This document shows positions 5,501-25,386 of a DNA stretch of 26,035 nt, piece after piece. This DNA comes from Cochliopodium minus. Lineage: Eukaryota; Discosea; Himatismenida; Cochliopodiidae. Position 1 is the first letter of the stretch, and every line of letters begins with the position of its first letter. A program made the position numbers and the translations under genes. The stretch covers positions 108,843-134,877 of the forward strand of contig JAMYWO010000038.1 in NCBI GenBank assembly GCA_024220525.1, in the 5' to 3' direction. Under the pieces are notes generated by a model. That model saw only the letters and a list, made by a program, of their open reading frames with translations. It was not told where the DNA came from and ran no database searches.

Positions 5501-7903
5501 TTAAATAATTTTACGCAAGTTAGAACTAGGATCAGATTTAATTTCAAGCATGGTATCACTCAGAGTAATTTTTCCAGCAATATCAACATCAACATCAAAA
5601 GGAGCCAATAATTCGCAAATTTTGGGAGAAATAGATTCATATTTCTCTCTTTTGTCCTGACTAACAGACTTTCCAATCCACTTGGCGTAAATGAAACGAG
5701 GAAGTTGGATTTTGACGAGGATGATGACGATCTGATCATCTTTGAGCTGATTTTTAAATTCATCGACCCCCCCAGAACCATTCCCGATCAACTCAAAATC
5801 AAGATTGTTGTTAAACCCGAAAGAAATCCACCCTGTGCGACAAGTGAGAGATCTTAGCCCTTGTGAGAGATTATCAAACTGCACTTTGTTGGAGAGGATG
5901 GAGGAGCTGTTGGAGTTAGTTGAGGTGGAGAGAGAGTTGAGGTTGGAGGCAGTAGGAGTCTTTTTGATGACTCTCTTAACCACCTTTTTAACTACTTTTT
6001 TAGCAGTTTCCTCATTGCTATCGTTAGTAGACACTTTATTTTCAGGAACAGGGTTGGTTGTACTATTTGTATTATTATTTGAATTAATATTTGTATTTGT
6101 TGTAGTTTTTGATGTGTTACTAGTGGTTTTAGTATTATTTGTGATATTATTATTGTTGGTAGTGTTAGTAGAAGGGTTATCAGAGGAACTGTTAGTATTA
6201 GTATTGTTAGTATTAATACTATTGGTGTTGTTACTAATAGTGGTACTACTAGTATTGGTATTAGTGGGGTTTGTGTTTGTGGTAGGAGTAGTTGTAACGG
6301 AAGAGGTGGGAGGCTTACGAGCATACTTTTTCTGACAGGTCTGACACTGGAGAGAAGTTTCGCTGACTATATACAGAGGAACTTTACACTTGGGACACTT
6401 GGTGGAGGAAAACTCCTCCTTCTTGGGAGCATTCGAAGGAGAATCACCAACCAACTGAGACTTTGAACTATTATTGTTATTAGTAGAAGTATTAGTAGTA
6501 TTATTAATAGTAGTATTAGTTGAAGTGTTAGGCAAAAGATTGGTGGAAGAATTTGTTTTGTTGAGATTATTTTTCAAAGTTAGATTGGGCGTTGTTTTGT
6601 TCAAAGTCGGTATGGTCGGTGTTGTGTTTGGTGTGGGCGTTGTCGAGGTGGTAGAAGGGGTGGTGGTTAAGGAGGTGGTGGAAGGGGTGGATTTGGAGAG
6701 GAGATTGGTCTCGGAGGGCTCCTTTTGTATTGAGGGAGTCTTGGTGGCTGTCTTCATCATTTTTATGGGTCCGCTGTTTGCTTTTTTGAGGGGAGCGACG
6801 TTGGAGGGAGTTTTGGGCTTGCGAGAATATTTTTTCTGGCATTTCTCACAGATGAAGGTGGCCTCGTTTAAAATGCTCAATAGTTGTTGGCAGGTGGGGC
6901 ATTTGGATGTGGTCTTTTCTGTTGATGTTGTTGAGGAATCCTTGTTCCCATTTATCTCTGTATTCTGATCGTTCTCATTATCATTTGTTTGAGAAGTCAT
7001 CCCTATAGTTTTATTATCAACAATGATTTTGCTATTGGTGGAAGTGGTGGGAGTCTCATTGCCTATCAAAGGAGAGGGAGTAATAATCTTGCTTCCACTA
7101 TTATTATTGTTATTGGTGGGTTTGTTGATAGTAGGGGTGGAAGATATATTATTGGTATTTGTATTAGGATTATCAACACGAGGAGAATAGATCTTGCTGC
7201 CCTTATTAGAAGAATTGGTCTCTGTGATAAAGATCTTGCTGCCTGTTTTGTTGGTGGTTGGAGTGGAGGTGAGATCCATTCTGGGTGAAGAAAAAATCTT
7301 GCTGCCTCCACCATTAGTGGACATATTGATCTCCAAATTGACAGAAGGGATGTTGTTGATCATTATTTTGCTACCTCCATTCGTTTTGGTATTAGTTGCA
7401 CCATTCTCAGTTGTTGTTTTAGCTGTTGAGATTATCTTACTACCTCCCACTGATTTATTGTTTAGTGTGGATTGTGTATTAGTTGTATTTGTTGCTACAT
7501 TACCATTTTTTGATGTTGTACCAATCTTTTTGGTATCTTGTATCTCTGATTTACCATTTGTTGTAGTGGTTGGATTGGATGTGGTTGGATTTGTTTTTTG
7601 TGGGGTATCAGAAGTCTTCTTCGCCACTTTTTTGACGACTTTTTTTACTGTTTTCACCACTTTCGTTGGTGTTGTTTTCTTTGGAGCATTATTTGTTGAC
7701 ATTGGTGTCAATGGTTGCAATTCATCATCTCCTCCATCATCGGTGTGTATCTGTGAATTGTATCTTGCATCATTTTCTTGGGGATCGTTTTCCATCATCT
7801 CTGATAGTTCTTTTTCTAATAATGATAGTGAATCTAATTGATTATCTGCTTTTTTATTGAAATATCCTTTTTCTACTCTATCGAATAAATCATCATCTTC
7901 CAT
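5501..7903 (-). CDS. Low-complexity protein with two zinc ribbons and a coactosin-like ADF-H domain
   Basis: A single 800-residue exon. Residues 1-60 are acidic (MEDDDLFDRVEKGYF). Most of the rest is Thr/Asn/Ser-rich. Embedded are two basic Lys/Val blocks (81-97 and 634-649), seven copies of a [GN]SKI[IMFY] motif between 154 and 294, and two near-identical zinc ribbons with CxxC, 13 residues, CxxC spacing (C335/338/352/355 and C503/506/520/523), each followed by QKKY.RKP. Residues about 675-795 resemble an ADF-H domain of coactosin type: GWISFGF, FELIGNGSGGVDEF, FIYAKWIGKSVSQDKR. ADF-H proteins of this class bind actin filaments, so an actin-associated scaffold is a fair inference. What the zinc ribbons bind is unknown. 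The long plus-strand open frames across this region are antisense shadows of its repetitive codons. Confidence 0.85.
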   Translation of the reverse strand: MEDDDLFDRVEKGYFNKKADNQLDSLSLLEKELSEMMENDPQENDARYNSQIHTDDGGDDELQPLTPMSTNNAPKKTTPTKVVKTVKKVVKKVAKKTSDTPQKTNPTTSNPTTTTNGKSEIQDTKKIGTTSKNGNVATNTTNTQSTLNNKSVGGSKIISTAKTTTENGATNTKTNGGSKIMINNIPSVNLEINMSTNGGGSKIFSSPRMDLTSTPTTNKTGSKIFITETNSSNKGSKIYSPRVDNPNTNTNNISSTPTINKPTNNNNNSGSKIITPSPLIGNETPTTSTNSKIIVDNKTIGMTSQTNDNENDQNTEINGNKDSSTTSTEKTTSKCPTCQQLLSILNEATFICEKCQKKYSRKPKTPSNVAPLKKANSGPIKMMKTATKTPSIQKEPSETNLLSKSTPSTTSLTTTPSTTSTTPTPNTTPTIPTLNKTTPNLTLKNNLNKTNSSTNLLPNTSTNTTINNTTNTSTNNNNSSKSQLVGDSPSNAPKKEEFSSTKCPKCKVPLYIVSETSLQCQTCQKKYARKPPTSSVTTTPTTNTNPTNTNTSSTTISNNTNSINTNNTNTNSSSDNPSTNTTNNNNITNNTKTTSNTSKTTTNTNINSNNNTNSTTNPVPENKVSTNDSNEETAKKVVKKVVKRVIKKTPTASNLNSLSTSTNSNSSSILSNKVQFDNLSQGLRSLTCRTGWISFGFNNNLDFELIGNGSGGVDEFKNQLKDDQIVIILVKIQLPRFIYAKWIGKSVSQDKREKYESISPKICELLAPFDVDVDIAGKITLSDTMLEIKSDPSSNLRKII

Positions 7904-8471: not shown

Positions 8472-9256
8472 ATGAGTGTGGAAGATAATAGTGAAGATGA
8501 GAAACATGTTTCTTTAATATTGCGTGGTGATCAATCTGTTGGAAAAACTTCTATCATGCTCAAATTTTGTGAAGGAGAATTTTCTGACAATCCCATTTCA
8601 AAGATCGAGACAAATTTCAAGAAAAAACAATTAAATATAAAAGGCAAGAATGTGGAGCTACTTGTGACCGATGTTGGTCCTATATCACATGTAAAAAATT
8701 AAAAACAAATTATAAATTTATAATTTCTCATGATCAAATTATAAAATTGAAAATAAAGAGTATAATTTAAAAAGGATAAAATCATATTTACATATTTATT
8801 TCTCCTAAATGAAAATAAAATATTAAAATTTTATTTTTCTACCTTCAGGAAAATGAAAAAACATCAACATATCAAGATGCTCAAGGAATAATATTGGTAT
8901 ATGATGTGACTAGACCAGAAACATTCGAACGTTTAGATTATTATTTAAAAGAAGCAGAAAGATATATGACTCAAGATTCATCCAAAATCTTGATATTGGG
9001 CACCAAACTTGATCTTGGCGTAAATGTTGATATTAATAAGGTAAATGATTATGTTGATGAAAGAGAGCTCTCCCATTATCATGTCTCCTCTAAAAATGGG
9101 GACAATTTAGAAAAGGCTTTTATAAATATAGTGGGATGTATTCTTAACGAAGACTCCTCATTCAATAATACAAACAAAACCACCAAACCTCAAATTGATC
9201 CCAAACCTATCATTCCTGATGAAAAGAAAAAGAAGAAGGCTTGTTGCATTATTTAG
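8472..9256 (+). CDS. Rab-like small GTPase with degenerate switch II
   Basis: Two exons (8472-8690 and 8849-9256, phase 0) give 208 residues. G1 is intact (GDQSVGKTS, 19-27). The central strand continues ILVYDVTRPETF, G4 is GTKLDL (TKxD form) and G5 is SSKNG. The C-terminus is a lysine run followed by ACCII, a dicysteine prenylation-type end that would anchor it to membranes. Switch II is unusual: where Rabs have WDTAGQE this protein has VTDVGPI. The DTAG Asp is displaced and the catalytic Gln is Pro. The distance from this point to GIILVYDVT equals that in normal Rabs, so this is not a missed exon. GTP hydrolysis is probably poor. The Rab-family call is firm; the subfamily is unknown. Confidence 0.9.
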
Positions 9257-9611: not shown

Positions 9612-11196
9612 ATGAGCTACGGTGAAGATTTATGGTTTGAAGATAAAAAAATTTTTCAGCATTTTGAGGGTGGATCTGTCGAATTGACTGATATGTGCAA
9701 ATTATTCAGAGAAAGAGCTGAATGTGAAGAGAAATATAGTAGTTCTGTAGGAAAATTAGGATCTGGATCCAAGAGGTTTTTAAAATAAGAATAAAAATAG
9801 TATCATATATGCAAGAATATAAAAGAATTTTTTTATCATTTATTTTTTGAATAATAATTTTTATTAGTATTTTCTTGATATCTTTGTTAACCCATCACAA
9901 GAGTGCGGGTGATATACATGGAAATAAGGCCAAAGAAATTAGATCCCAATGTATTGTCCCAACAGAGGAATTCGTGAAGAATGAGAACAACCAATATAAA
10001 AAACTGAAGAATGATTTGAACGAATTGGAGAAGAAAATGAAGGTAGCGAACGATGAAATGGAAAAATCCAAAGAGAAATATTTAAAGGTAAATTTAAAAA
10101 ATAAAGGAGAAAGTAAAAATATAATTAATATACATTATTTAAGCAAAAATAAAAATAAAAATAATTCTTGCATTCAATTGAAATCATTTTATAAAAGATA
10201 AAATATGAGATAATAAAATAGATTTTATATCCTGATCTATTTTCTTTTTTATTTGAAATTTATTTTTGTCATTAGGCAGCAGATCTCCATGAACTAAGCG
10301 AAAAAAAGCTGAAAAATGCAAAGCTGCAAATGGAAGATGATACTAACTTGGAGTTTGGCAAAGAAAGATACAACGAGATGGAGACCGCCTACAAGAACGA
10401 CGAGAAAGACAGCAAGGAGTTGGAGAACCAATACAAAGAAAAGATAAAACAAGCTAATGAAATCAAGAAAGTATATGTCCCTGAAAAAAAAAGAATCCTT
10501 AATGTAATTTTTTTTTTTTTGATTTATTCTCATTTTTTATGAATAAAATGTTTTTTAGTTTACTTTTATAACGATTTTATTTCAAAAATTTTTAAAAATT
10601 TTCTTTTTGTTAATTTTTTTTTATTTGTTAAATTTTTTTTGGTTTAACAGGCATTCCAAGATTTAGAAGAGAAGAGAATTGTTTTCCACGAGAATATTTG
10701 TGGAGTTTACGGAAAAGTTACTGGTATCGGTGGTAAATTTTTATATTTTTTTCAAAAAATTAAATCTTATTTTACAAATCAGATTTTAATTTAAAATATT
10801 CTTTAACAAAATTTTTATTGAAGATTTTTTTTTTAAAATTTTAAATTTATTATGAAATTTTTAATTTTTTTTTTTATTTAATTATTAATAATGTTTAATT
10901 AATTTTTTTGTATTCAAATGTTGATTAGATGAGATTTGAATTAGATATATTGTTTTAATTTTTTTTTTTTTAAAATTTTTCCTATTTAGGGAATCACCAA
11001 AGCAACGGTAAAGCAGAGCTCCAAAAGTGGATCCAACAGAACAAAAGCAAGGAGAAACCCAACCTGGATTTGTTCGAGTTTGTTGCTTACAAGCCCCACT
11101 ACCCTGATATCCCCTATGAGAAGAAGGGCTTGCCTGATGTCGATCTCACCACTACTCTTATTTCCATGTCCGAGTTCATGGACAACATTATTGCTG
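9612..11196 (+). CDS. F-BAR domain protein, 3' end lost in assembly gap
   Basis: Five exons (9612-9775, 9868-10087, 10276-10503, 10651-10732, 10990-11196) join in phase to the first 300 residues. Residues 1-56 match an FCH region (MSYGEDLWFEDKKIFQHFEGG ... RAECEEKYSSSVGKL). Next come helical segments with H-K and K/E-rich coiled coil (KKLKNDLNELEKKMK, NEMETAYKNDEKDSKELE) and QDLEEKRIVFHENI, typical of the long F-BAR helices. F-BAR dimers bind and bend membranes and often link to actin through C-terminal SH3 or RhoGAP domains. Any such domain is missing because the sequence runs into a (ATTTTTTT)n satellite and the N at 11326. Donors at 9776 and probably 11197 read GTTTTT rather than GTAAGT-like. 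Confidence 0.85.
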
Positions 11197-11249
11197 GTTT
11201 TTATTTTTTATTTCATTTTTATTTTTTATTTCATTTATTTTATTTTTAC

Positions 11250-11325: not shown

Positions 11326-11326
11326 N
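11326..11326. other. Assembly gap (single N)
   Basis: One N separates a T-rich 8-mer satellite from an A-rich 7-mer satellite. A plus-strand gene runs into it from the left and a minus-strand gene from the right, and both lack their 3' ends. The real distance and even the adjacency of the two sides are unproven. Confidence 0.9.
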
Positions 11327-11446: not shown

Positions 11447-14400
11447 CAAAACATTTAAACTCTTGAGATCTCTATGTGCGATGATGGGCTCATTAGAGTG
11501 TAAAACATTCAAAGCACCGGCGATATCTTCACCGATCTTGTATTTTTCGGAGAGGGAAATTTCCGAAAGGGGAGACTTGAGAAACTGCGAGAGATCTCCG
11601 TACTCTGCGTATTCCATCACAATGGAGTATGGTTCGAGCGTGTAGCCTTTGATTTCGATGATGTTTGGTTTTCCTTTCAGCATGAACAAAAGATTCACTT
11701 CTCTCCTATTTAAAATTTAATAAAAAATTTATATATCAATAAAATTATAAAATTAAAATAAAAAATAAAAATAATCAAAAGAAAATTTGAATTCCTTAAT
11801 ATAAAAAATTGAAAAAAAAAACCTGAAACTATCAATCTTGTGATAGATACTCTCGTGAGTGTTGATTGAGTGATCTCTAAAATCAGAAGGAACCTCAATC
11901 TCCTTGATGGCGACGGTGTGATAAAAGAGGTTGGCCTTATAAACGATTCCGCAGCTGCCACTGGAAATCTCCTGCTTGTTCTCGATGTTCTTGACAGAGA
12001 TGAGATCATCTTGGAACTGCTTGAGGTAAAGGTAAGGAGCAATTTGATGGCACTTCAAGATGTGAGGTATATTTTCTTCTTTACAAGCGGGACATTGGAT
12101 GGTGTGTCTCTTTTCGATGGAGGAGATTTCGAGTTCCTTCTTTTCGATGAAAGTCATTTCGTTAAAGTCGAAATAGGGAATCAAACCGCGAAAAATGGGA
12201 AGTTTGGCAGATTTGAAGGTGTAATTGGCGATGGAATCGATGATATCATTCATGATGAAAAAGTAGATGTGTGCATTCCTTCCACGCGCCCTAAATTTGA
12301 TGTAATAACCACTCTCTTCGCCAGGAAATAAGCCCAGAACAAAAGTGGTTGACTCTATGTTCCACACCACCATGTTCTTCCACAGACGCAAGATCTCAAC
12401 AGAAGGAAGACGCAAGATTTGAAACATGATTTTGTTCATTAGAGTCAAAGATTGAATTTCAAAGTAATACCACTTTTCGACGAGCGTTTTGTTGTTTTCT
12501 TCAATAATGGAAGAAATCGTCTCGGATTCTTTGTTGATTGCCTCCTCTTCGTTTTTGGGGTTTCTAAACAAGAATACTGGAATTTCTTTTTCGTTACTCT
12601 TGTATGAAAAGGTATCCCAAAGATCTATCACCATTTCCCAGTTGTAAGGAGACACAGGAAGTTTGGAAAACAAAATGAGGATCTTCTTCTGGGATATATC
12701 CACCAAATTTTCGGTCAAAGTTTTTCTGTACTGGAATACGATAGAGTTGTTTGTGTTGAGATCAAACAAAAGCTCTGTTCTTTGGAGGAACTGAACAAAC
12801 GATAAAATCCACAAGGGAGATAACAACAAGTTCTCATTGTAAGAGATCAATTCAGAGTAACAATCTGACAAGTTTAATATTCCGTTTGTTCTTTCTGTGC
12901 ACTCGAGAACATGTCTTAGAATCGAAACGAGAATGTAAGGATGTGTGAGAATCAATTTATTGTCTCCCCAGTTGCTTGAATTAAAATAAGTGATCATACC
13001 GTAGTTGTGAAAAAACTCCATCACTACCTTTTTGTTGGGTTGTTTGGTTGAGTAGCATCCCTCAATGATCCTCTCAAACTCTGGATATTTGATAAACTGG
13101 AATACTGATAGTTTCGACTCTGCCATGATCTGGTTTTCTACCTGGGATTGATCATAAGTTATCTTGTTGAACTTTGATACTTCCTTCGATAACAACACGA
13201 AAAAAGATCTTGCGTTTAGAGAAGTGAAATAGGAGACAGATACAATTTGTTTGTAGATGATGTTGAGTTTTTTGGAAACAACAAACTCCATCTCCTTTTT
13301 CTTTTTTCTATCCAATTGATTTGAATTAGTTCCAAAAATGAAGATCGGTCCGTTTTGGGTAGATCTGATGGTGTGAACCATCGAGCTCAACTTTTCATAA
13401 TCTCTTCCGAAATCTGATAAAATCACAAAAACCAATTCTGAATTTTGGTTGATGACATGAGAATAGTAAGAAAAGAGCTGCTTTGTTTCGAAACCAAAAA
13501 TCTTCAATTTTAAATCAAACTCTGGAATTTCCACCTCTTTGTACCATCTGTCAAAGAAGTTCTCTCGATCTCTTTTGAACAAGCTTTTGGAGATCTGTTT
13601 CTTTGTGAAAGCATGGATTTGTTCGTTGGAGATTACTTTTTCATCAATATCATTGTCGAAATAAAAATTGAGATTTCTGGATTCCATCGAAAGGTTCTTC
13701 CTTTTCTTGATCAAAACAGGAGAAGATTCTCTAAAATTTCCAGTTAGCTCCACCTCGATCAATCTATTTTCTACGGAATTATTCACCAAATAATCGTTCA
13801 CAAAATAGAGAAAATCAGAATAGTTCTCGCAAAGAATACACATTGTAATATTTTTCATTGGGGTTTCTTTGTCCTTCAAGTTTTGAAGGAAATTGACAAG
13901 CACAGAAGGCTGGTTGTTGTAATCTTTAGGAAGTTTAAGATTGGGATTCCCAGACAACGAGAGAACTTCGAGATTTGTTAGGATGTTGCACATTTGAAGA
14001 GGTAGTTCCACCAATTCGTTGTTTCTCAAATCGAGTTTCTTGAGATTTGTTAGGTAAGATATGTGAGAGGGAAGATATCTGAGTTTGTTATTGCTGAGAT
14101 CCAACTCGGTCAATTCCTGCATAAGATAAATATCATAAGGAAGATGCTCTATTTTCTTGTAAGAAAAATTTGCATAGTTTGTTTTGCTTCCCCAAATTTC
14201 GTAGCACTCTTTCTTTAAAGGATGAAACATGTTTTTCGAAGCAGTCAATTCATTGAGGGTTTTCACATTATCGAGCAAGTCAACAGGAATACTGTACAAG
14301 AAATTGTTGTGTAGAGTGAGGATTTCCAAGTTTGTTAAATTTCCAAGGATACAAGGTCTGATGTAATGGATGTTGTTGAAATGAAGATAGAGTTCTTTGA

Positions 14401-17400
14401 GATTGGTTAATTTTGAAATTATGACGGGAATTCTAACAATCAAATTGTTTTTGAGATCCAAGATCCTCAAGTTATCTAGGGAGCAAAGATTCTCATGTAT
14501 TGTTCCTATCTGATTTTCTCCCAAATACAATTCTTCCAGGTTTTTTAATTCAAAGATGTTTGGGACCTCCAACAACTCATTGTTTGAAAAGTCAAGTATC
14601 TTCAAGTTTTTTATATTCAAGTATTGAACAGAAAAAAGATTCTCGGAGAGATGTTCATTCTTTAGGCTTAACCAAGAAAGATCAATTTTGTCAGGTTTTG
14701 AATCAACGAACGTGGAAGTGTTTTCTAGATGGCAAAAAACAGGATGTGCAATGGTGCCCTTGATATCAAGATTCAGGCTTTGACTCTTTGACTTTGATTT
14801 GTTGATTAATTGATCAAAGATGATCTCACATTCATTTGAAAGCTTTTTGTTATTTGATACAATGTTGTAAATGATACTCACGGACAAACTGGAAGAGGGA
14901 ACGAAATTTTCGATGGTATCGTCACAAGAAGCACCCTTTTCAAGAATATTCTTGAACATATAAGATCTGATCAAGTTCCTTCTGTTTCTGGCCAATAAAA
15001 TGCAAATTTTTTGTATCAATTGTACAGGCAAAGAAAAGGCAGAGCAAGTAAAGTTGCAAAGAGGAAGAGTATTGTTGATTTCCGCTATTTGGATGAGATT
15101 TCTCATAAACAAAGATGACACTGTGTTTCCTGATATATCAAGTGTTCTCAGATTGTTACTGAATCTTAACAAAAAGTTGTTGAGTGACATCAAATCTTTT
15201 TCAACTAATCCACAATTTGATAAATACAGTTCGGAGATGGTCGCACTGTTAGCAGCAATATCCGCAATTTGCCTCACACTTTCTTCATCCATTATATTTT
15301 TGGAGAAATCAAGACAAACAAGGGTGGTATTTTGAGATATTGGAGTAATCAATCTCAAAATATCCTCTGCTTTTAATTTGAGATTAATCAATTTCAGGTA
15401 TTTAATGTTGCACTTTGGTTGAATGAGAAGATTTCCTAATTCATCCAAGCATTCCAAAGGAAACATACCACCTGATATCAACAGATACTCCAAAGGAGAT
15501 GATTTGATTTGAGATAAAATCAGATTTAAGAATTTTGGCTTGAAAATCTTCTTCAATCCAACCAATTCTAATCTCTTTAGCATCTTTGGAAAATTGAATC
15601 CACCTGTTTGATAAAACTTGAATGTTTTGAGATTCTTAATCACTAAAGTGGAAGCTTCTTTTGGGAGAGCTTGCATAAAATCAAGTTTGCTGAAACTGAT
15701 ATCCATATTGTCGATAGAAGCAAACAAGTTCTTGACAGATTCCTCAGAATCAGATGCGAAAATGACTTGTGATCTCAACTGGTAAGAAAAATTGGGAATG
15801 ACCTTCAAGATTTGATTTGTTATGGAAACTCTATTCAAAGATTTATTGTTGTCACATTTGTTAATAACTACAGTGATTGGTACATTCCCGTATATTGTAT
15901 CTTCGTTGCTCAAAAATTTGCATCTCACAAGACTTTTCAAAACCTCCATACTGAACCCGTCAACCACAGATCCATTGGTAAAGTTGTTGCAATCAGTGAA
16001 AAAAAGAATCCCATTCAAATCTGAAAACTCATGATACCAATCCAAATCTCTCCAAGAAAATGAATCCGCTTGATGAAGAACATTCAACAACCTAGTACTC
16101 TTTTTGAAAGAAACACCTTCCATGTTCTCCAAGTTTCTCTTGATCTTCTCAGTACTGTTATTATCATCTTCCAAGCTTGATTCTAATTCAGGAAAGTCAA
16201 GAACCATAAACCTGTATCTCTTGTTGTCTTGGTGAGCTTCAAAAATACTCATTTTGTTCCCATTCATCAATATCTCAACCGGCTCTGCAACTTGTTCCAA
16301 AAGGACTTTTTCAAGCATGCCTTTGATGAGTGTCTTCTTGCCACTGTTTGGATTCCCAACCACAAGAATATTGAAATTCACAATATTTTGAAGGGAAAGA
16401 CCTTTGTTCAAAGACAATTTGAAGTTTTTCCTGTGTGTCTTTCCACTTCCAGAAGAACTCAACTTTTCTTTGTTAAACAAAATATCAGAAGATATAGAAA
16501 ACGTTGATTTTATCAACTTTGTTAGTTTTAGTGACTCTATTTTTTGAATCGTGAACAAAACTTGAGAAGGAACCACATTAAACCACTCTAGCTCGCTAGA
16601 GCCTATCGATGGCAATTTCTTTTCGAGCCATTCACTTTGGAGACAGTCAAATATTGTTGGTCTTTTGTTAAAATCTTTCTCTAGTAGTCTCGAGATAAAT
16701 TCCCTGGCGTTCCTAGAAACCACAGCTAATGCATTTCCTGGAAAAGTGAGTTTTTTGGACAAGATATCGCTTTTCAATCCCTCTTCTGATTCAATAGAAA
16801 AGGGGAAGCATCCAAACAAAAGAATGTACAAGAGTATTCCAACGTTCCAGATATCTGATGCAGTGCTATACTGTCCCGATAATACTTCTGGTGCTGCATA
16901 TAGAATCATTGTTTTTGCTTTAAAACGACTGTCTTTTTTTTGTATTAAGATTAATTAAAATTTTTTTAAATTGAAAAGAATTACTAAAAAGTGATGTAGT
17001 GACACAAAACTTTTTCTCCAATGAAACAGCAATGTGTTCCAAAGTCATGTTACCAAAAATAACTAAATGAAATAAATAATAACCAAAGTATTTAAAATTA
17101 TTTTTTTTTTACTTCCTTGTTTGTGAAGATAAGACAGATAAGAAAAAATTGAGGAAGCAATTTTTTTGACAAGATTCTCATTATAATTGTTAATTTCGTT
17201 GTTAATCAAACCCTTTTGCTTTTCAACACGGAACAGATGGTCAAAACTGCTTTTTTTGGAAAAGTGTTTAAGAAGTTCAATCAAAGAAATGCTCTTTCTA
17301 TCTTGGGCAAATATAAAAAAATTCCCTTCTTTAAAGTTACAATGGATGCCCTATAACAAAATAATTTTTAAAAAAAAATGTTTTATAATTTTTTTTTTTA

Positions 17401-18518
17401 TTTCCTTACCAAATGATTTTGATGGTGGAAAGTTCTCCATAGTTTAAACTTGGTTTGCCACTTTTTGGATTCCTTGATTTCTATATACAAAAACATAAAC
17501 TCTTCAGAAGATACTTTCAGAACAGCTTGCTTAGACTTTATATGTGTGTCTTCAAAGATAAACTCCATTCCTTGGTCCGAGAAAGAAAAATCTTCTATTT
17601 TCGAAGGGTACCACAAGTAATAGTACTCTTTATCACTGTCTTGAAAATCTCGAGAAATATTCACATTCCTAAATAATTTTCTATGCAAAAGAAGATAAAA
17701 AAATTAAAATGTTAATCCCGAATCCGGCTTACTCTATTATCATTCTGTTCCCAATTTCAACGGATTGATCCCTTGTTAACCATTGCTTCTTTTCCAACCA
17801 ATCAGTTATTGATCTACCAGAAACGCTGTTTTTGTACACTATCCCGTAGATTGGATCAAAGTTACTTGTGAGCGATATCTGGCTTTTCATCTGGCTAAAT
17901 GTAATCAAAAATGATGATATTTGTTCTGTATTTTTCAAGAATTTCATCAAGAACGAAAACTCTCTAAGATCTATAGATGTTTCTGACTTTGTATTAAAAA
18001 AAAAATGAAAAAAAAAGATTCTCAAAATTTAATTCAAATGAAATAATCAATTTTAATTATAATTAAATTTATAATTTAAATTATATTATTTGTAACGATA
18101 TAATTTTTCTCTTTTTCTTACCAATTTATAATAGGAATTCTCTTTCAATTTCTTATCTTGATCCAATAAGGATTCAATCCATTCATTCTCAATCATCTTT
18201 TGAAATAAATTCATCGAATCTTCCTTTGATATCTCGTATTTGATTTTGAAGAGCATTATTGCCTCTCTCAATTTGAAGCTATATTTATATATCTCTTGCT
18301 GTTTCTTGTCTTTATTGAAGATGATATCCAATATAAAATTTTTGAATAAAATCCTCTTGATACATAAATAATTAACAATATGAAATATGAGATTATTTGA
18401 ATTCAAATACCAAATCATATCCCAATATAGATATTGTGTCCCTTTTATTTCTTCTGGGTGAATATATCGGACCCAATTTTTGATTGTCCATGAATTTTAA
18501 CTCGAAATCGGTTTCCAT
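11447..18518 (-). CDS. Giant Roco protein: DEP - pseudokinase - G domain - LRRs - degenerate ROC - COR - TKL kinase (3' partial)
   Basis: Eight exons (18411-18518, 18122-18355, 17733-17986, 17410-17680, 17113-17350, 16985-17062, 11823-16917, 11447-11705) join in phase to 2179 residues before the gap. Residues about 65-114 look like a DEP C-terminal half and 135-215 like a DEP domain (GRSITDWLEKKQWLTRDQ). Residues 240-497 are a kinase fold with K254, but HRD is FGN (371-373) and no DFG is seen; YAAPEVL and ASDIWNVG are kept. A G domain follows at about 577-790: GNPNSGKKT, VLDFPE, VINKCDNN. RI-type LRRs come next, then about ten SDS22-like LRRs (to 1395). In the ROC position (1415-1640) the P-loop is gone (CENYSDFL). 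COR lies at 1659-1977 (FFHNYGMITYF), then CPACKEEN...C, then an intact TKL kinase (SSGSCGIVYKA, VAIK, HRDLK at 2170-2174). Roco proteins are dimeric signalling kinases; partners here are unknown. Start ATG 18518 is chosen by phase. Confidence 0.88.
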
Positions 18519-18757: not shown

Positions 18758-21700
18758 ATGAGATCGTATAGAACTTTCTTTTTTTTCTTTATTTGTTATT
18801 CTTATGCGGTAATCCCAAATGATTGGGTAGATAGAATAAAAGGATCCCAAATGATATATTCTGCAAATGAACCAAGCAATAAAGTATACATGCCAGAAAT
18901 TGGGAATGGATATATTGCGACAGTTTGTGATTCAGATACAATGCATAGTATATTGATCTGCATTAATATTATTAAATTATAACCATTAAATTTAGTTGGT
19001 GGAGTTTATAATGGGAGAAATTCTACAACACCATCTCATCGTGCAAGGTAAAAAGTTTGCATTTAATATTTGCTTTGAAATGAAAGTATATTATATAGAA
19101 TTCCATCCACTAATTCCGTCAATCTAACAAATGGGCAATTATATGCAACAGCATTGGATATAGAAAGAGGAGCATACTTTAGAAGATGGATAGTATCATC
19201 ATCCAACATAGAACAGACATCTTATGCACACAGAAAGTATAGGAATGTACTCATCACATCTTTGGAATTGCTAAACAATACTAATAATGAGATCACTGTG
19301 AATCTCAGCGTAAATAGGGGAAATAGCAGCCAAGATTTTTCATTCACAACTATGAATTCTCCAATAAAGGGAACCACCCTTATTTATGGTTGTATATTAA
19401 TCACAGAAGAAGAAAATAGGTAAGAAAATTTCAGTTTAAAATTTATTTTAATATTTCCGTTCAATCATAGTGGTAAAAAACTTTTCAATTCTAGAATTAA
19501 AAAATATAGAAACAAAAAGGAATGAAAATTTTTTAGTAAAAATGATTGTTAATAGGATCAATATTAATCATTTGTATATGTTGATTAATATTGATCAATT
19601 ATATAGTATCTTTTGTTGAGATATAAAAATTGATCCAAATTATATGGCCCAAATTAAATTCTCAAAAAAATTTTCAATATCAATTTAAACATATAATTAT
19701 GATTTTAATTCTTATATGCATATAATTCACTCTGTACAAACAGAAAGAGTTTGTGTGGCGTACATATACACCAATATCGACCAAGCAGTCAAAATATCAA
19801 GATCAAACCCCTACCAACTCTTCTACTCAGTATTCAGAACAACCTTAGACAGCCGCGATTTGATCAATGATGTGGTTGAAGATTACAGAGAAGTAGCTTC
19901 GATAAACCCAGAAAGATTGTGGGATGAACATGTTCGCGAATGGTCCAAGTTATGGAATTCAGGAATAGAAGTGGATAATCCTTCCATCGCTCAAAGGGTA
20001 AATGCAAGTATCTATGCACTTTATTCTAACTTGAGGGAAGATTGGAAATATGGCATTTCTCCATGGTAAGTACTTTTTTTTAAAAAAGTTTACAAATTAT
20101 TTGAACATTTAGTCTTTTTTTTTTTATTTTTTTTTTTTTTTTTTGTTAATTGGATTTTTCATTTTATATCTTCATTTAATTCATTAATTAGTGGAATAGC
20201 CACTAACGGATACAACGGCCATGTGTTCTGGGACTCCGAAACATGGATGTACCCCAACTTTTTGTTGTTAAATCCTTCCCTTGCTTCAAGTCTTTTGAAA
20301 TATAGATTGGACAGATTGCCACTTGCCTTCTCCAAAGCGCAAGGACTCGGTTTTGAAGGAGCCTTGTTCCCAGTAAAACAATTTTCTAGAGTTTAAGAAG
20401 AAATTGATCCATTTAAATTTAATTAATTTTTTAGTGGGAAAGTGCGTAAATATTTTTTAAAATTCATTTTAATTTTTTTTAAGGAAAAATCTATTTTTAA
20501 AACAGATTTACAGGCGTTGAGTGTTGTAAGTTAAATCCATTTTTTTTTTTACATAATTTTCATTTCAAACTTGAAAGGTCCTGTTTGGGCTCCAGAAGGT
20601 ACTTATGAACAAGTAAAAAAATTTTTTTTTAATTATCAAAATTCAATATAAAGTAAGCATTCTAAAAAGCTTTTCTCATTAATTAAATTAAAAAAAAATT
20701 AGCATATCAGTGGCGATATTGCACTTGCAGTTATGCAGTACTATTATTCCACAGGAGACAGAAATTGGATGTCCAGCGTAGGATTCAACTTGATAGAATC
20801 CATCGCCAAGTTTTGGGAAAGCCGTGTCCTTTACAACGAGACTGAAGATTTGTTTGTAATCAACAAAGTTATTTCTCCTGACGAAAATGCTGGTAAAATT
20901 AGAAATAAAATTAAAATTTTAAAACATCTGCTCAAAATTTAAAATTTTTATTTTTTAATAAAGGAATTGTGAACAATTCCTGTTATACTAACATAATTGC
21001 ATCAATGTCGCTTTCCTTTGGGATTGAAGTATACAAAATGTACGGGATAACTCCGCCCGCAACCTGGTCTATCATCATTGAGAAAATGAAGATACCTTTC
21101 GACAGCAAGCTTCAAATTCACCTCGAATACGACGGTTATGCAGGCACTAGCATCAAACAATCTGATGTTGCTCTTTTGCAATACCCTTTGATGTATTCTA
21201 TGCCCCGCAGTGTCGCCTACAACGACTTAGTTTATTATCAAAATAGAACCGGTTTTTTTTCCTAATTTTAAATTGATTTTTATTTTATTCTATTCTAATA
21301 ATAATTTTAATTTTCTTTAATAACATCCTTTATTCATTTTTTTCGTTAGTTTTTGGAGGAGTTTTTATGGCTGCCAGTTCATACTCGATAATATGGCTCA
21401 CCTTCAGAAACACTACCATGGCGAACCAACAATTCCAAAAAGCGTTCGAATATATGATAGCACCTTACTGGGTAATAATAATTTAGCCATACATTTCTAC
21501 TTTAATCTAATTTTTATTTAAATTTTGAACATTGTCTATATCTCGCATATTTATATTCATTCAAACACAATAATAATTTAACCTTTATAATTTTAAACAC
21601 TTTTTTCTTATTATATTTTTTTTATTTACCCTTTTTTAGGTTTTTAACGAAACTATTAACGGAGATGGAAATACTCATTTTCTTACCGGAACAGGTGGAT

Positions 21701-21990
21701 TCATCCAAAACTTCTTGTACGGCTATGGTGGAATGAGGTTTTTCAGCAACTTTACCCTTTTATTGAATCCTATCCTCCCTGAAAATGTCAACTATCTCAA
21801 ATACAGAAACATCCATTTCTTGCACACTATTTTTTCTTTCTCTTTTGACTCCAACTTCATTTACCTCGAAAGAACAGACTCCAATCTTGATATCAAGTTG
21901 AATGTTTACTCTCCTTCTAATCAGTCATACGTTATACCTTTTAACAGCCCTCTTCGTTTGCCAATCGATACTTATCAAGTTAGATCTTAA
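18758..21990 (+). CDS. Secreted GH65-family glycosidase (acid trehalase / PGGHG-like)
   Basis: Twelve exons join in phase to 692 residues: 18758-18947, 18996-19047, 19099-19419, 19748-20065, 20192-20372, 20435-20445, 20506-20525, 20578-20612, 20703-20892, 20964-21251, 21350-21471, 21640-21990. A short signal peptide (FFFFFICYSYA) precedes the GH65 N-terminal beta-sandwich (IGNGYIATV, GGVYNGRNSTTPSHRARIP). The (alpha/alpha)6 catalytic domain carries NGYNGHVFWDSETW (Asp308), EGALFP-WESAFTGVEC-CPVWAPEG spread over four exons, and VISPDENAG (Glu437), the likely general acid by comparison with human PGGHG. The enzyme should hydrolyse an alpha-glucoside such as trehalose or a glucosyl-galactosyl linkage, in the secretory pathway, lysosome or outside the cell. 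Which of these it prefers cannot be told from motifs. Two exons are only 11 and 20 nt long. The donor at 21252 is GTTTTT. Exon 4 start (19748, after AAAG) was set by phase. Confidence 0.92.
19556..19596. repeat. 15-bp perfect inverted repeat in GH65 intron 3
   Basis: GATCAATATTAATCA (19556-19570) and its exact reverse complement (19582-19596) flank an 11-nt loop. It lies in the 328-nt intron 3, the longest of the GH65 gene. It may be an intronic hairpin or the remnant of a small inverted-repeat element. No target-site duplication is evident. Confidence 0.75.
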
Positions 21991-22189
21991 AGATTGCCAA
22001 ACTTTTTTTTAATTTTAAAATTAAAACAATATTTTTGAAATTATTTGATTTTGAAGCTAAAATAGAACTATCAAATAAAGAAAAAGTTATCATTTTGACA
22101 GACAATTGTTGAAATTCTTTAGGAAACTTATCTGGTTAACTTTGGACCAATTTGAAGACGAAAGATTATATTTAAAATAAAAAAGACAA

Positions 22190-23859
22190 ATGAATTCAGC
22201 CAACATAGATAAAGATACTCTTATTCTTCATTTTGATATCAATAAAACGATAATCGTATCTGATCCTGTCGCCAATAGAAGTGTAGAAGACATTCTCAAT
22301 TCTATTGTGGCAGATAATGTTTATGGCACAGTGCAGTACAAGGATGATCAAAAGATATTTGTTCCTGTGGATGATGATCTCCATAATACTAAGCCCAATA
22401 AAGATTCCATGTTATATTACGATTTTGTAGAGGATTTATATCCCCATCCCACCCATATCGAGAATGAAGAGGAGAGAATAAAAGTGGCAAAAGAAAATAA
22501 AAGATTAAGGCATGAAGGTAATCAAATATGAGATTAATAAAAATATTTTCATAAATTTGAGGATATAATGATTGTTCAAATAATAGATTTTTCTTTCATA
22601 CTTTCCATAGAAGAAAGATTTGCAAAATATATGCGATATTTGAAATTTCTTCGCATCAAATTTTATTTAAGAAAAGATCAGTTTATATGACCCAGAATAA
22701 CAAATCTTAATTAGAAAGTAAAATAATTTATTGTGTTTAAAACCAATATCCTTGATAAAAGCCACAGGAAATTTCACCAAAACATTCCCACAATTCAGAA
22801 AATATTACGAGACACTAGCAGAATCACTTACTTACGAGGATAAAGATAAAAAAAAGAAAGAACATTACATCCTCCCATCATTCTTCCACATGCTTGAAAG
22901 TCTCCTTCAACACAAGAAAAAGTTTGTCATCATTTTCCGCACTTTCGGCGAAGATTTGCCCCTTATTTTGGATCATTTCAATGGGTTTTTTCGAGGCGAT
23001 CATTCTTGTCCTTCTTTTGGAAGCTTGAATAGTGGTTTGTTGGAATTGTTCCAGAATTCTAGAAATCATCTTGTAAAATAAATTTATTTAATTTAATTTT
23101 TATTAAGTTTTAATTGATAAAAAAAATTAATATTTAATGAAATTTTGTGAACTTTGAAATATTTTTCTTAGATTTTGTTATTTTTTATTTTTTTTCATTA
23201 TTTTTGATTTTTTTTTTTTGGTTTAGATAGAAGGACAAGAAAAGATGCATTGTTTTTACAGAGATAAAGAAGGGGTACATCTGATCGAAGGAACCACCAC
23301 AGTGGTCACCAATCACAATGATGGCCTTTCTTTCTACGAAACGCACAACAAAAAGACGAAAATCATCAGCGGATTTCAAGACATTTACTCCGATATGATC
23401 AACAAAGTAGAAAAATGTATTAACGAAGGTGGAAATTTAGCAATGAGAGGTTTTTAATAAATTTTTTTTTTAATTTTTTTTTAATTTTTTTTTTAATTTT
23501 TAATTTGTAATTTAATTTTTTTAATAAAAAGACTATTACTGTTTTTGGGGACCTCTCAACCAAGAACGCCCAGAATGTGGCAAAGTTTTCTTGATCGACC
23601 CCGAAGATTCTAAGTACCATCAAATATTCTTTGATGATAATATTTATTATGAAAAAAAAACTTCGATTATTGTACTTTTTTTTAAAATTTTATTTTTTTT
23701 TCAATTTTTAATTCTTTAAAGGATGTGAGAAACAAAAATGGATCCATAATTCCTTATTCCGAAGTGAGAGACAAGCACATTGTAAAGGTGGATACCTACC
23801 AAGCAATTTCTAATCTTAATTACTTCTTTGAAAGAATAAATCATTGTTTGAATAATTAA
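22190..23859 (+). CDS. HAD-superfamily-like conserved eukaryotic protein
   Basis: Five exons (22190-22517, 22762-23072, 23227-23449, 23532-23671, 23722-23859) join in phase to 379 residues. Motif I is LHFDINKT (Asp16, Asn18, a DxNxT version of the HAD DxDxT), followed by VSDPVANRSVEDILNSI. Then come KENKRLRHE, LPSFFHMLESL, motif II FVIIFRTFGEDLP (Thr170), AMRDYYCFWG, and motif IV HQIFFDDN (Asp322, Asp323). I recognise the same order of blocks from uncharacterised protist proteins annotated only as HAD-like; the substrate is unknown. HAD enzymes use the first Asp as nucleophile, usually on phosphate esters. Asn at the second motif I position departs from the phosphatase pattern and makes the chemistry uncertain. 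The junction of exons 1 and 2 could use AG at 22761 or 22767, both in phase. The donor at 23450 is GTTTTT. Confidence 0.85.
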
Positions 23860-23956
23860 AAAAAATTGTTTTTAATATTTTTTAGATTTTTGTGTATAAA
23901 ACAATTTGAAATATACTAAAGTTTTATTACAGAAACATTATTTTTTTTTCATTATT

Positions 23957-25386
23957 TCATCTGAAGTGGTGGGAAATAAGGTTGGAGATGAACAGCTGGA
24001 TGACTTTGGGAACGATCACCTTGTTCTCGTTCTTCAACCTCTTGAAACACAACAATAAATTGAAAATGTTGCTTCTGAACAAAACAGGCCAATGTTGGTT
24101 CTCTTCTTTTTTCCACTCCTTATTTATTGAACTAAAAGGATACAATTTAGTTTTAAACATTCAAAAATGAAAAGAAAAATTTCTCATACAAGAGTATTGC
24201 CAAAAAAAAGAAAAAAAAGAAAAAAAAAAATAATATAAAAAAAAATAACTAAAACACTCAAAATTTCTTTAGTTCAAAAAAATTTAAAAAATTATGTGAA
24301 CTCAAAAAAAAAATTACTTAATAAAGTTTCTCATCAGGATAATGGGCATTTTAGAATAATCACTATTTATACAGTAAACATATCCTTTTCCGAATTTCCT
24401 TCTTGCGATGACAGGATACTCCATGTCTCCCAACAAAATCTCCGCGTCATTACAAATAGTCGTTATTTTTTTCCCCACTTTTCTCGTCTTTATTACTTCC
24501 CCTTCTTTCAATCCCTTCAAATAAATGTTTTCATGGCAATTCCAACATGTATAATCATCATAAGCACTCAATGTCCCTAATTATTGAATTTTAAAAAAAA
24601 AAATTATTTCGATCATTTTCGAATTTTATTTTAGAAACTATATCGAGCAATAAAAACCAAGAATCTCATCGATATTAAAACATAAAAAATAAAAACGTTT
24701 TATTTTCAAATAAGCAATGTTATTCAGGGCTTAATGAACTCCCAAAATTTTTTTTAATAAAAATAATTTGGATTGTTGATAAAGATATTGCGATTTCAAT
24801 TATACAGTAATCATCATGATTTTTTTATCCATTATACTGCTCGAAATGATCTCATGTAAACAGAACTCAATAATTTGATTCAAAGAAATTCCAAATAATT
24901 CAAGATTTTTGAAATTTTAAAATATATAAATATTATATATATATATAGTTTTATACCTTGCACCACTTGCAATTTCTCATGATACCATCTTCCCTTTGGA
25001 CCATAATCGCTATTGGCGACATTATTGAATCCCAAAGTGCATACCTTTCCCCCTCCCTCGATATAACTGGCGATATTATCACCTAACTCTTTTGCTAAGC
25101 CATTATCCTCATATCCATTTCCCCCATCAAGAAAGATGAGATCGAAATCATTCAATTTCACATCCCCATTCACTTTCTCATGCTCCTTGATGATATCCCT
25201 CTCATTCTCAGAGTAGGTATCCTCAGATACTTTGAAATAATTGTAGATCTTGAAATTGGGATTCTGCTTGAAGATTCTCCCTGGCATATCGAAACTGGTG
25301 TAGATATATGCTATCCGTATCACTTCCTTTATCCTCCATTCTTCTTCTATCTCCATCTTTTTATTTGCTGCATTTTCGGGATCCAT
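23957..25386 (-). CDS. ThuA / class-I GATase-like protein (copy 1)
   Basis: Three exons (24957-25386, 24318-24576, 23957-24131) with phases 1 and 2 give 287 residues. The N-terminal part reads VIRIAYIYTSFD, then NDFDLIFLDGGNGYED, LGDNIASYIEGGGKVCTLGF and GRWYHEKLQVV. This alternation of hydrophobic strands, an IFLDGG turn and a YIEGGGKV strand resembles the GATase1/ThuA-like flavodoxin fold. After the first intron come TLSAYDDYTCWNC, YPVIARRKFGKGYVYCIN and a C-terminal helix near LFRSNIFNLLLCFKRL, as in proteins where an effector layer closes the site. No catalytic Cys-His-Glu triad could be assigned. The fold call is moderate and no function is claimed. It is convergent with the HAD gene (97 nt apart) and has a tandem paralogue upstream. 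Confidence 0.7.

Follow-up and report, generated by a model that had tools for sequence, protein, structure and literature searches.

A Cochliopodium minus protein family with a pseudokinase, an upstream G-like domain and a P-loop-less Roc position ahead of a Roco-type kinase

Within 26,035 nucleotides of the genome of Cochliopodium minus (Discosea; Himatismenida; Cochliopodiidae; GenBank assembly GCA_024220525.1, contig JAMYWO010000038.1, forward-strand positions 108,843 to 134,877), a stretch that we call the window and number from its first letter, a minus-strand gene running from 18518 to 11447 encodes a protein with the order DEP–DEP–pseudokinase–G-like–LRR–LRR–Roc-like–COR-like–TKL-type kinase (LRR, leucine-rich repeats). 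The reading to which we lean, and we hold it tentatively, is that this protein belongs to a lineage-expanded, Roco-derived kinase family in which the C-terminal kinase would provide the output, the Roc domain would be a pseudo-GTPase, and the pseudokinase and upstream G-like domain would together make up a regulatory module. What carries this reading is a set of motif states that is repeated from one family member to the next, and in particular a Roc position that has no P-loop in any member in which it can be read.

The structure of the gene can be read directly. Eight exons join into 2184 codons free of stops, separated by seven AT-rich introns of 50-135 bases that are all GT-AG, and a single open frame of 1733 codons spans everything from the C-lobe of the pseudokinase to the N-lobe of the C-terminal kinase. 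Paralogue models, made with a spliced-alignment aligner that was given no prior intron positions, have a phase-0 intron after the first DEP (directly after ..YKL) in 9 of the 9 that reach that point, and most of those that reach the site have a phase-2 intron before helix C of the C-terminal kinase (at W/RREV or F/RREV, the slash marking the intron). These recurrent intron positions, together with the same domain order in the database proteins P0002 and P0003, argue for one spliced gene, just as the initial annotation of this DNA had proposed. Its placing of the gene end at 11447 has to be given up, since the last exon, which closes on HRDLKSLNVL, is followed by GT and then by T-rich DNA that a single N interrupts at 11326; this rules out a gene that is complete at 11447, and the C-terminal kinase stops before its DFG because the gene runs into an assembly gap. 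The C-lobe of the P0002 kinase, used as a tblastn query, gave only chance-level matches (E of at least 0.003) in the window and in the adjoining L020, and was found in L010 (E 1.75e-32) and L019 (E 6.6e-28). An open plus-strand stretch at 10990-11208, with no Pfam match, enters the T-rich sequence and the same gap from the opposite side.

The family is a sizeable one. Searching the organism's own genome (44.65 Mb in 598 contigs) returned, among the matches listed, related stretches on C12, C99, C6 (two places each), C235, C398, C147, C29 and C186, and with the two C6 places counted as one there are at least ten further family loci. Seven models (L009-L015) are full-length, at 2283-2452 residues, and have the same domain order, and partial models add to these; identities within the genome are 27-59%. 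The initial annotation had called for homologues of the same order, and in the databases P0002 and P0003, with 31% and 38% identity to the long exon respectively, answer to that description; P0003, which is truncated in its C-terminal kinase, also has 51% identity to L009. A database search with the Roc-COR part of P0002 returned P0002 alone, and one with its N-terminal part returned P0002, P0003 and four others matching 27-30% of the query, which (two of them being named muscle kinases) were excluded from all counts. A 10-row tree did not fix the position of the window protein and put P0002 on a long branch. The G+C content of the loci examined is 29.3%, these being gene-rich picks, and Rfam gave no match at gathering scores. 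In addition, L040 (G000 C221:43000-52999) holds DEP-DEP-pseudokinase in a model with no G domain or Roco part, and may be a shorter relative or a broken copy.

The motif states described below come from a table of 13 rows, 12 of them readable at each site except for the HRD of the C-terminal kinase, where 11 are. This table leaves out L019 (a 3' kinase fragment only) and L040; it counts L016 at N-terminal sites only and L017 at C-terminal sites only, and sets P0003 aside for the HRD and DFG of the C-terminal kinase. L016 and L017 share one contig; a single N interrupts each of them, and the two may belong to the same gene. The L018 model contains one frameshift. States repeated at the same alignment columns in 12 members represent more than chance.

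In part, the window protein has the layout of a Roco protein, with LRRs before the Roc position and a TKL/MAPKKK-type kinase after the COR-like region, the window kinase itself being truncated. Pfam finds DEP in two stretches (E 6.6e-13), LRR_8 (E 3e-16) between the two kinase domains, Pkinase near the N-terminus (E 4.3e-20) and PK_Tyr_Ser-Thr at the C-terminus (E 3.5e-15). The initial annotation had overlooked both DEP domains; its upstream kinase-like domain devoid of HRD and DFG, its intervening LRRs, its Roc-position domain without P-loop and its C-terminal kinase with VAIK and HRD are all borne out, and its COR is a COR-like region, with COR-A under the cut-off.

The two kinase domains differ in their motifs. 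In the N-terminal one, where a kinase fold is predicted from the sequence, the HRD position reads FGN and the DFG position TTS; HRD is found in 0/12 members and DFG in 0/12, which rules out wrong splicing as the mere cause of their absence, and an Asp stands at the catalytic Asp position in L009 alone. Its beta-3 lysine has no conservation across the family. A kinase match without the catalytic motifs is, on the alignment, what marks this domain as a pseudokinase, and its FGN or YGN resembles the HGN of the JAK pseudokinase. The C-terminal kinase keeps the VAIK lysine in 12/12 members and HRD in all 11 that can be read. The closest profile matches of the pseudokinase are CAMK-type kinases (STK33 at E 1.1e-25, calmodulin-domain kinases and STK17B), whereas those of the P0002 C-terminal kinase in the PDB include LRRK1, MLTK, TAK1 and Roco4, with a chain labelled EGFR ranking ahead of them, and it follows that the two kinases differ in origin.

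At the Roc position, GxxxxGK is found in none of the 12 readable members, and at the place where GK[S/T] would be expected all 12 have Asp followed by Phe (11) or Tyr (1), at 13811-13816 in the window; so uniform an alignment indicates that Asp-Phe/Tyr is a conserved replacement and not random decay. Canonical Rocos exist in the same genome, with a GxxxxGKT P-loop pattern in 6 of the 10 loci fetched, so the loss of the Roc P-loop is specific to this family, across which, as judged from these motifs, the Roc switch is lost. Since the Roc is dead in the relatives too, such kinases must be under another form of control. More generally, the whole genome gives 60 COR-A matches, about 20 of them above cut-off, which represents a large Roco repertoire.

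The upstream G-like domain presents a more nuanced picture. In the window it has NKCD, as the initial annotation had noted, but it cannot be called intact in the way that was claimed: the P-loop is GKKT instead of GK[S/T], and DFPE stands where DxxG would be. Across the family, GxxxxGK is present in 10/12 members (absent from P0002 and L014) and NKxD in 8/12 (absent from P0002, L011, L014 and L015), with both motifs together in 8/12. The residue after GK is Lys in 6/12 and Ser/Thr in L012 only, whose P-loop is a canonical GKTT accompanied by NKVD, and none of the 12 has DxxG at the aligned position (11 members by alignment, P0003 by eye). The picture of reciprocally dead and intact pairs of domains, which had been drawn from the window, is therefore not supported. 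Nevertheless, when residues of the domain are ranked by conservation over 12 rows (P0003 left out), G587 stands in the top 4%, D755 in the top 6%, K593 in the top 7%, G592 in the top 9% and N752 in the top 11%, as would be expected if binding were selected in most members.

As to what kind of G domain this might be, a profile of seven upstream domains gave 402 PDB matches, and of the best 60 most are G-alpha chains. Its best whole-sequence E, 1.5e-6, belongs to a chain that carries two copies; single segments are weak (0.01 at best among the alignments listed), and the same best 60 include bacterial Roco chains at E 0.0015-0.0018. Pfam G-alpha appears in 5/7 members at E up to 0.1. By hhalign, the domain gave 94.2% against Rab/Rho-type GTPases from the same genome, but over 28 P-loop columns only, 72.5% over 45 columns against canonical Roc-COR, and 5.7% against two G-alphas from the same genome; that last value, with the 20.2 bits of the window domain against a Pfam cut-off of 48.8, rules out a full heterotrimeric G-alpha. 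The assignment that these profiles point to is a G-like domain, its subfamily being unsettled. Searching the genome with the G part gave matches solely in loci of the Roco-like kinase family (E up to 0.001, among the matches listed). P-loops with GKKT also occur in replication factor C subunit 3, and replication factor C subunits of that kind bind nucleotide.

How might such a protein work? In the scheme that we prefer, the C-terminal kinase would be the only likely enzyme and the output of the chain, and the Roc without its P-loop would hold COR in place, supporting dimerisation or coupling with no nucleotide cycle. The pseudokinase and the upstream G-like domain would form a regulatory module, and DEP and LRR would bring in membrane or partner input. 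In most members the upstream domain, with its GxxxxGK and NKxD, is probably still nucleotide-binding; indeed, the motifs kept upstream and the P-loop lost in Roc fit nucleotide binding being retained in the one and lost in the other. With no Ser/Thr after GK in 11/12 and no DxxG, canonical Mg2+-dependent hydrolysis is unlikely there, and the domain might serve as a scaffold loaded with nucleotide, or as a slow sensor, and not as a cycling switch. The gene structure, the domain order and the motif states with their recurrence across the family are observed, whereas nucleotide binding, dimerisation and kinase control are all things that we infer from sequence.

Several points weigh against this scheme. 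The upstream P-loop is missing from L014 and P0002, and NKxD from L011 and L015. Sequence profiles give little backing to the assignment of Roc and COR: COR-A scores 19.1 bits in the window against a cut-off of 35.3 and stays under that mark in each of the five family loci listed, the best COR-A match of any member having an E of 3.4e-6. Comparing the Roc and COR parts by hhalign with canonical Rocos of the same genome gives just 43.6% (E 2.4e-4, 179 columns), and the Roc-like part gives 1.1% against Rab/Rho. In the PDB, the Roc-like profile has the LRRK2 Roc as its sole match (E 0.23-0.28), and the combined Roc and COR profile matches Dictyostelium MCU (E 0.0046) ahead of LRRK2 (E 0.099-0.13), a match that we take as chance and that weakens a firm Roc-COR assignment all the same. 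Finally, among 10 readable relatives the DFG position of the C-terminal kinase is DFE in nine (L009-L014, L017, L018 and P0002) and DFG in one (L015), which leaves its activity unproven on motif grounds.

The alternative that comes through best, although we think it rather unlikely, is that everything upstream of the C-terminal kinase is structural, a series of pseudo-enzymes without nucleotide, with control exerted by DEP and LRR partners and by COR dimerisation. The members lacking upstream motifs favour this idea, as do the missing DxxG and the unconserved beta-3 lysine of the pseudokinase; against it, a neutral remnant should not retain both GxxxxGK in 10/12 and NKxD in 8/12, in columns ranked within the top 4-11%. 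The initial annotation had suggested instead that nucleotide sensing moved from Roc to a working upstream G domain, which would drive the kinase through COR. Such a transfer of sensing is possible but unproven, and the contrast between a Roc P-loop lost in 12/12 and upstream motifs retained together in 8/12 speaks in its favour, as does the canonical P-loop of L012; the absence of DxxG, and of Ser/Thr after GK outside L012, speaks against it, and P0002 and L014, which lack the upstream P-loop, indicate that nucleotide sensing there is not required by every member. As a replacement switch it is improbable. A more elaborate version is a slimmer prospect still: in the GKK P-loop of half of the members the second lysine occupies the place of the Mg2+-binding Ser/Thr, and sensing might have moved to a G-alpha- or Ras-like domain acting as a Mg2+-independent, non-hydrolysing sensor that, with the pseudokinase, gates an LRRK-like kinase. 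That two genes, or an assembly chimera, were taken for one is barely credible, for although there is a gap at 11326 and single Ns also interrupt the family loci L016, L017 and L019, two separate genes are excluded by the 1733-codon frame, the common introns and the same order in relatives, namely the other loci and the two database proteins.

The features of the gene are collected in Table 1. Around it, the window holds a Ras/Rab-type small GTPase gene at about 8480-9256 on the plus strand (Pfam Ras, E 1.8e-15, on its second part), and in the genome at large the Roc profile has 155 matches, headed by those in short Rab-like frames. A multi-exon plus-strand gene at about 18760-24000 has a hydrophobic, signal-like start and segments of glycosyl hydrolase family 65 (E 8.4e-18 and 1e-6), and an 800-codon open frame on the minus strand at 5501-7903 has weak Pfam matches only (Zn_ribbon_6, E 7.8e-5; Cofilin_ADF, E 0.001), both under the cut-off.

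Table 1. Features of the Roco-like gene, in window coordinates
Feature	Position	Strand	Basis or detail
Gene model, up to where the assembly breaks off	11447..18518	-	exons 18518-18411, 18355-18122, 17986-17733, 17680-17410, 17350-17113, 17062-16985, 16932-11823, 11705-11447
First DEP-like domain (exon 2)	18122..18355	-	placed by eye; Pfam DEP prints coordinates for the second stretch alone
Second DEP, residues 163-220, split by intron 17732-17681	17617..17842	-	Pfam, E 6.6e-13
Pseudokinase, residues about 230-497	16625..17589	-	Pfam, profile search, alignment
FGN at pseudokinase HRD position	17057-17049	-	motif alignment
TTS at pseudokinase DFG position	17000-16992	-	motif alignment
Upstream G-like domain, residues 580-800	15716..16378	-	profile searches, Pfam, hhalign
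P-loop variant GNPNSGKKT, residues 587-595	16331..16357	-	motif alignment
NKCD, G4 motif, residues 752-755	15851..15862	-	motif alignment
First repeat array, ribonuclease-inhibitor-like LRR (subtype by eye)	14936..15628	-	sequence; aligned in relatives
Second repeat array, LRR_8/LRR_4 type	13910..14617	-	Pfam
Roc-position domain without P-loop	13136..13846	-	profile searches, hhalign, motif alignment
LCENYSDFLYF at Roc P-loop position	13834-13802	-	motif alignment
COR-like region, COR-A sub-threshold	12146..13141	-	Pfam, genome COR-A scan
C-terminal kinase, truncated (N-lobe and on as far as the catalytic loop), split by intron 11822-11706	11447..11980	-	Pfam, motif alignment
VAIK of C-terminal kinase	11914-11903	-	motif alignment
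HRD of C-terminal kinase	11476-11468	-	motif alignment
Single N, assembly gap cutting off the remaining kinase	11326..11326	.	sequence

How does this family compare with what is already described? With the Roco/LRRK proteins (LRRK1, LRRK2, Dictyostelium GbpC and Roco4) it shares the order of LRR, Roc position, COR-like region and TKL-type kinase; it differs in its P-loop-less Roc and in the two DEPs, pseudokinase and second G-like domain upstream. The initial annotation knew of no described Roco with this order, and we found neither the combination nor the order in the open-licence literature searched, but a dead Roc with a live kinase is not in itself new. Indeed, a passage of PMC2927912 describes IMLRK (inactive myotubularin-LRR-ROCO-kinase) of Entamoeba and Dictyostelium, in which Roc is degenerate and the kinase probably active, and its authors remark there on the departure from the usual Roc control. 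The two families are alike in having an inactive upstream enzyme, LRR, a degenerate Roc and retained kinase residues (with DFE in most relatives here), whereas here a kinase takes the place of the inactive myotubularin, of which Pfam finds no match in the window protein among families up to E 1, and there is an extra G-like domain. Two G domains per chain are also found in the Trichoplax Rocos, for which part of PMC4104024 describes a Ras-like domain N-terminal of Roc and suggests Roc-COR as a nucleotide-dependent dimeriser; here, the Roc has no P-loop and there is a kinase output. Dual-domain kinases of the JAK and GCN2 type, in which an active kinase is preceded by an inactive one, arose several times according to a passage of PMC1420674 that names no Roco among them, and in the present family about 1500 residues, G-like domains and LRRs among them, separate the two kinases. 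The pseudoGTPase domains of p190RhoGAP, as part of PMC5593906 relates, keep a G-domain fold after GTPase function was lost, although these proteins are unrelated and have no Roc or kinase. There is continuing debate over how, in LRRK2-type proteins, the kinase is controlled by the nucleotide state of Roc, and a family with a P-loop-less Roc that keeps its COR-like region and kinase represents a natural experiment on Roc-COR without a nucleotide cycle, and it also poses the question of whether another G domain can take over the role of Roc.

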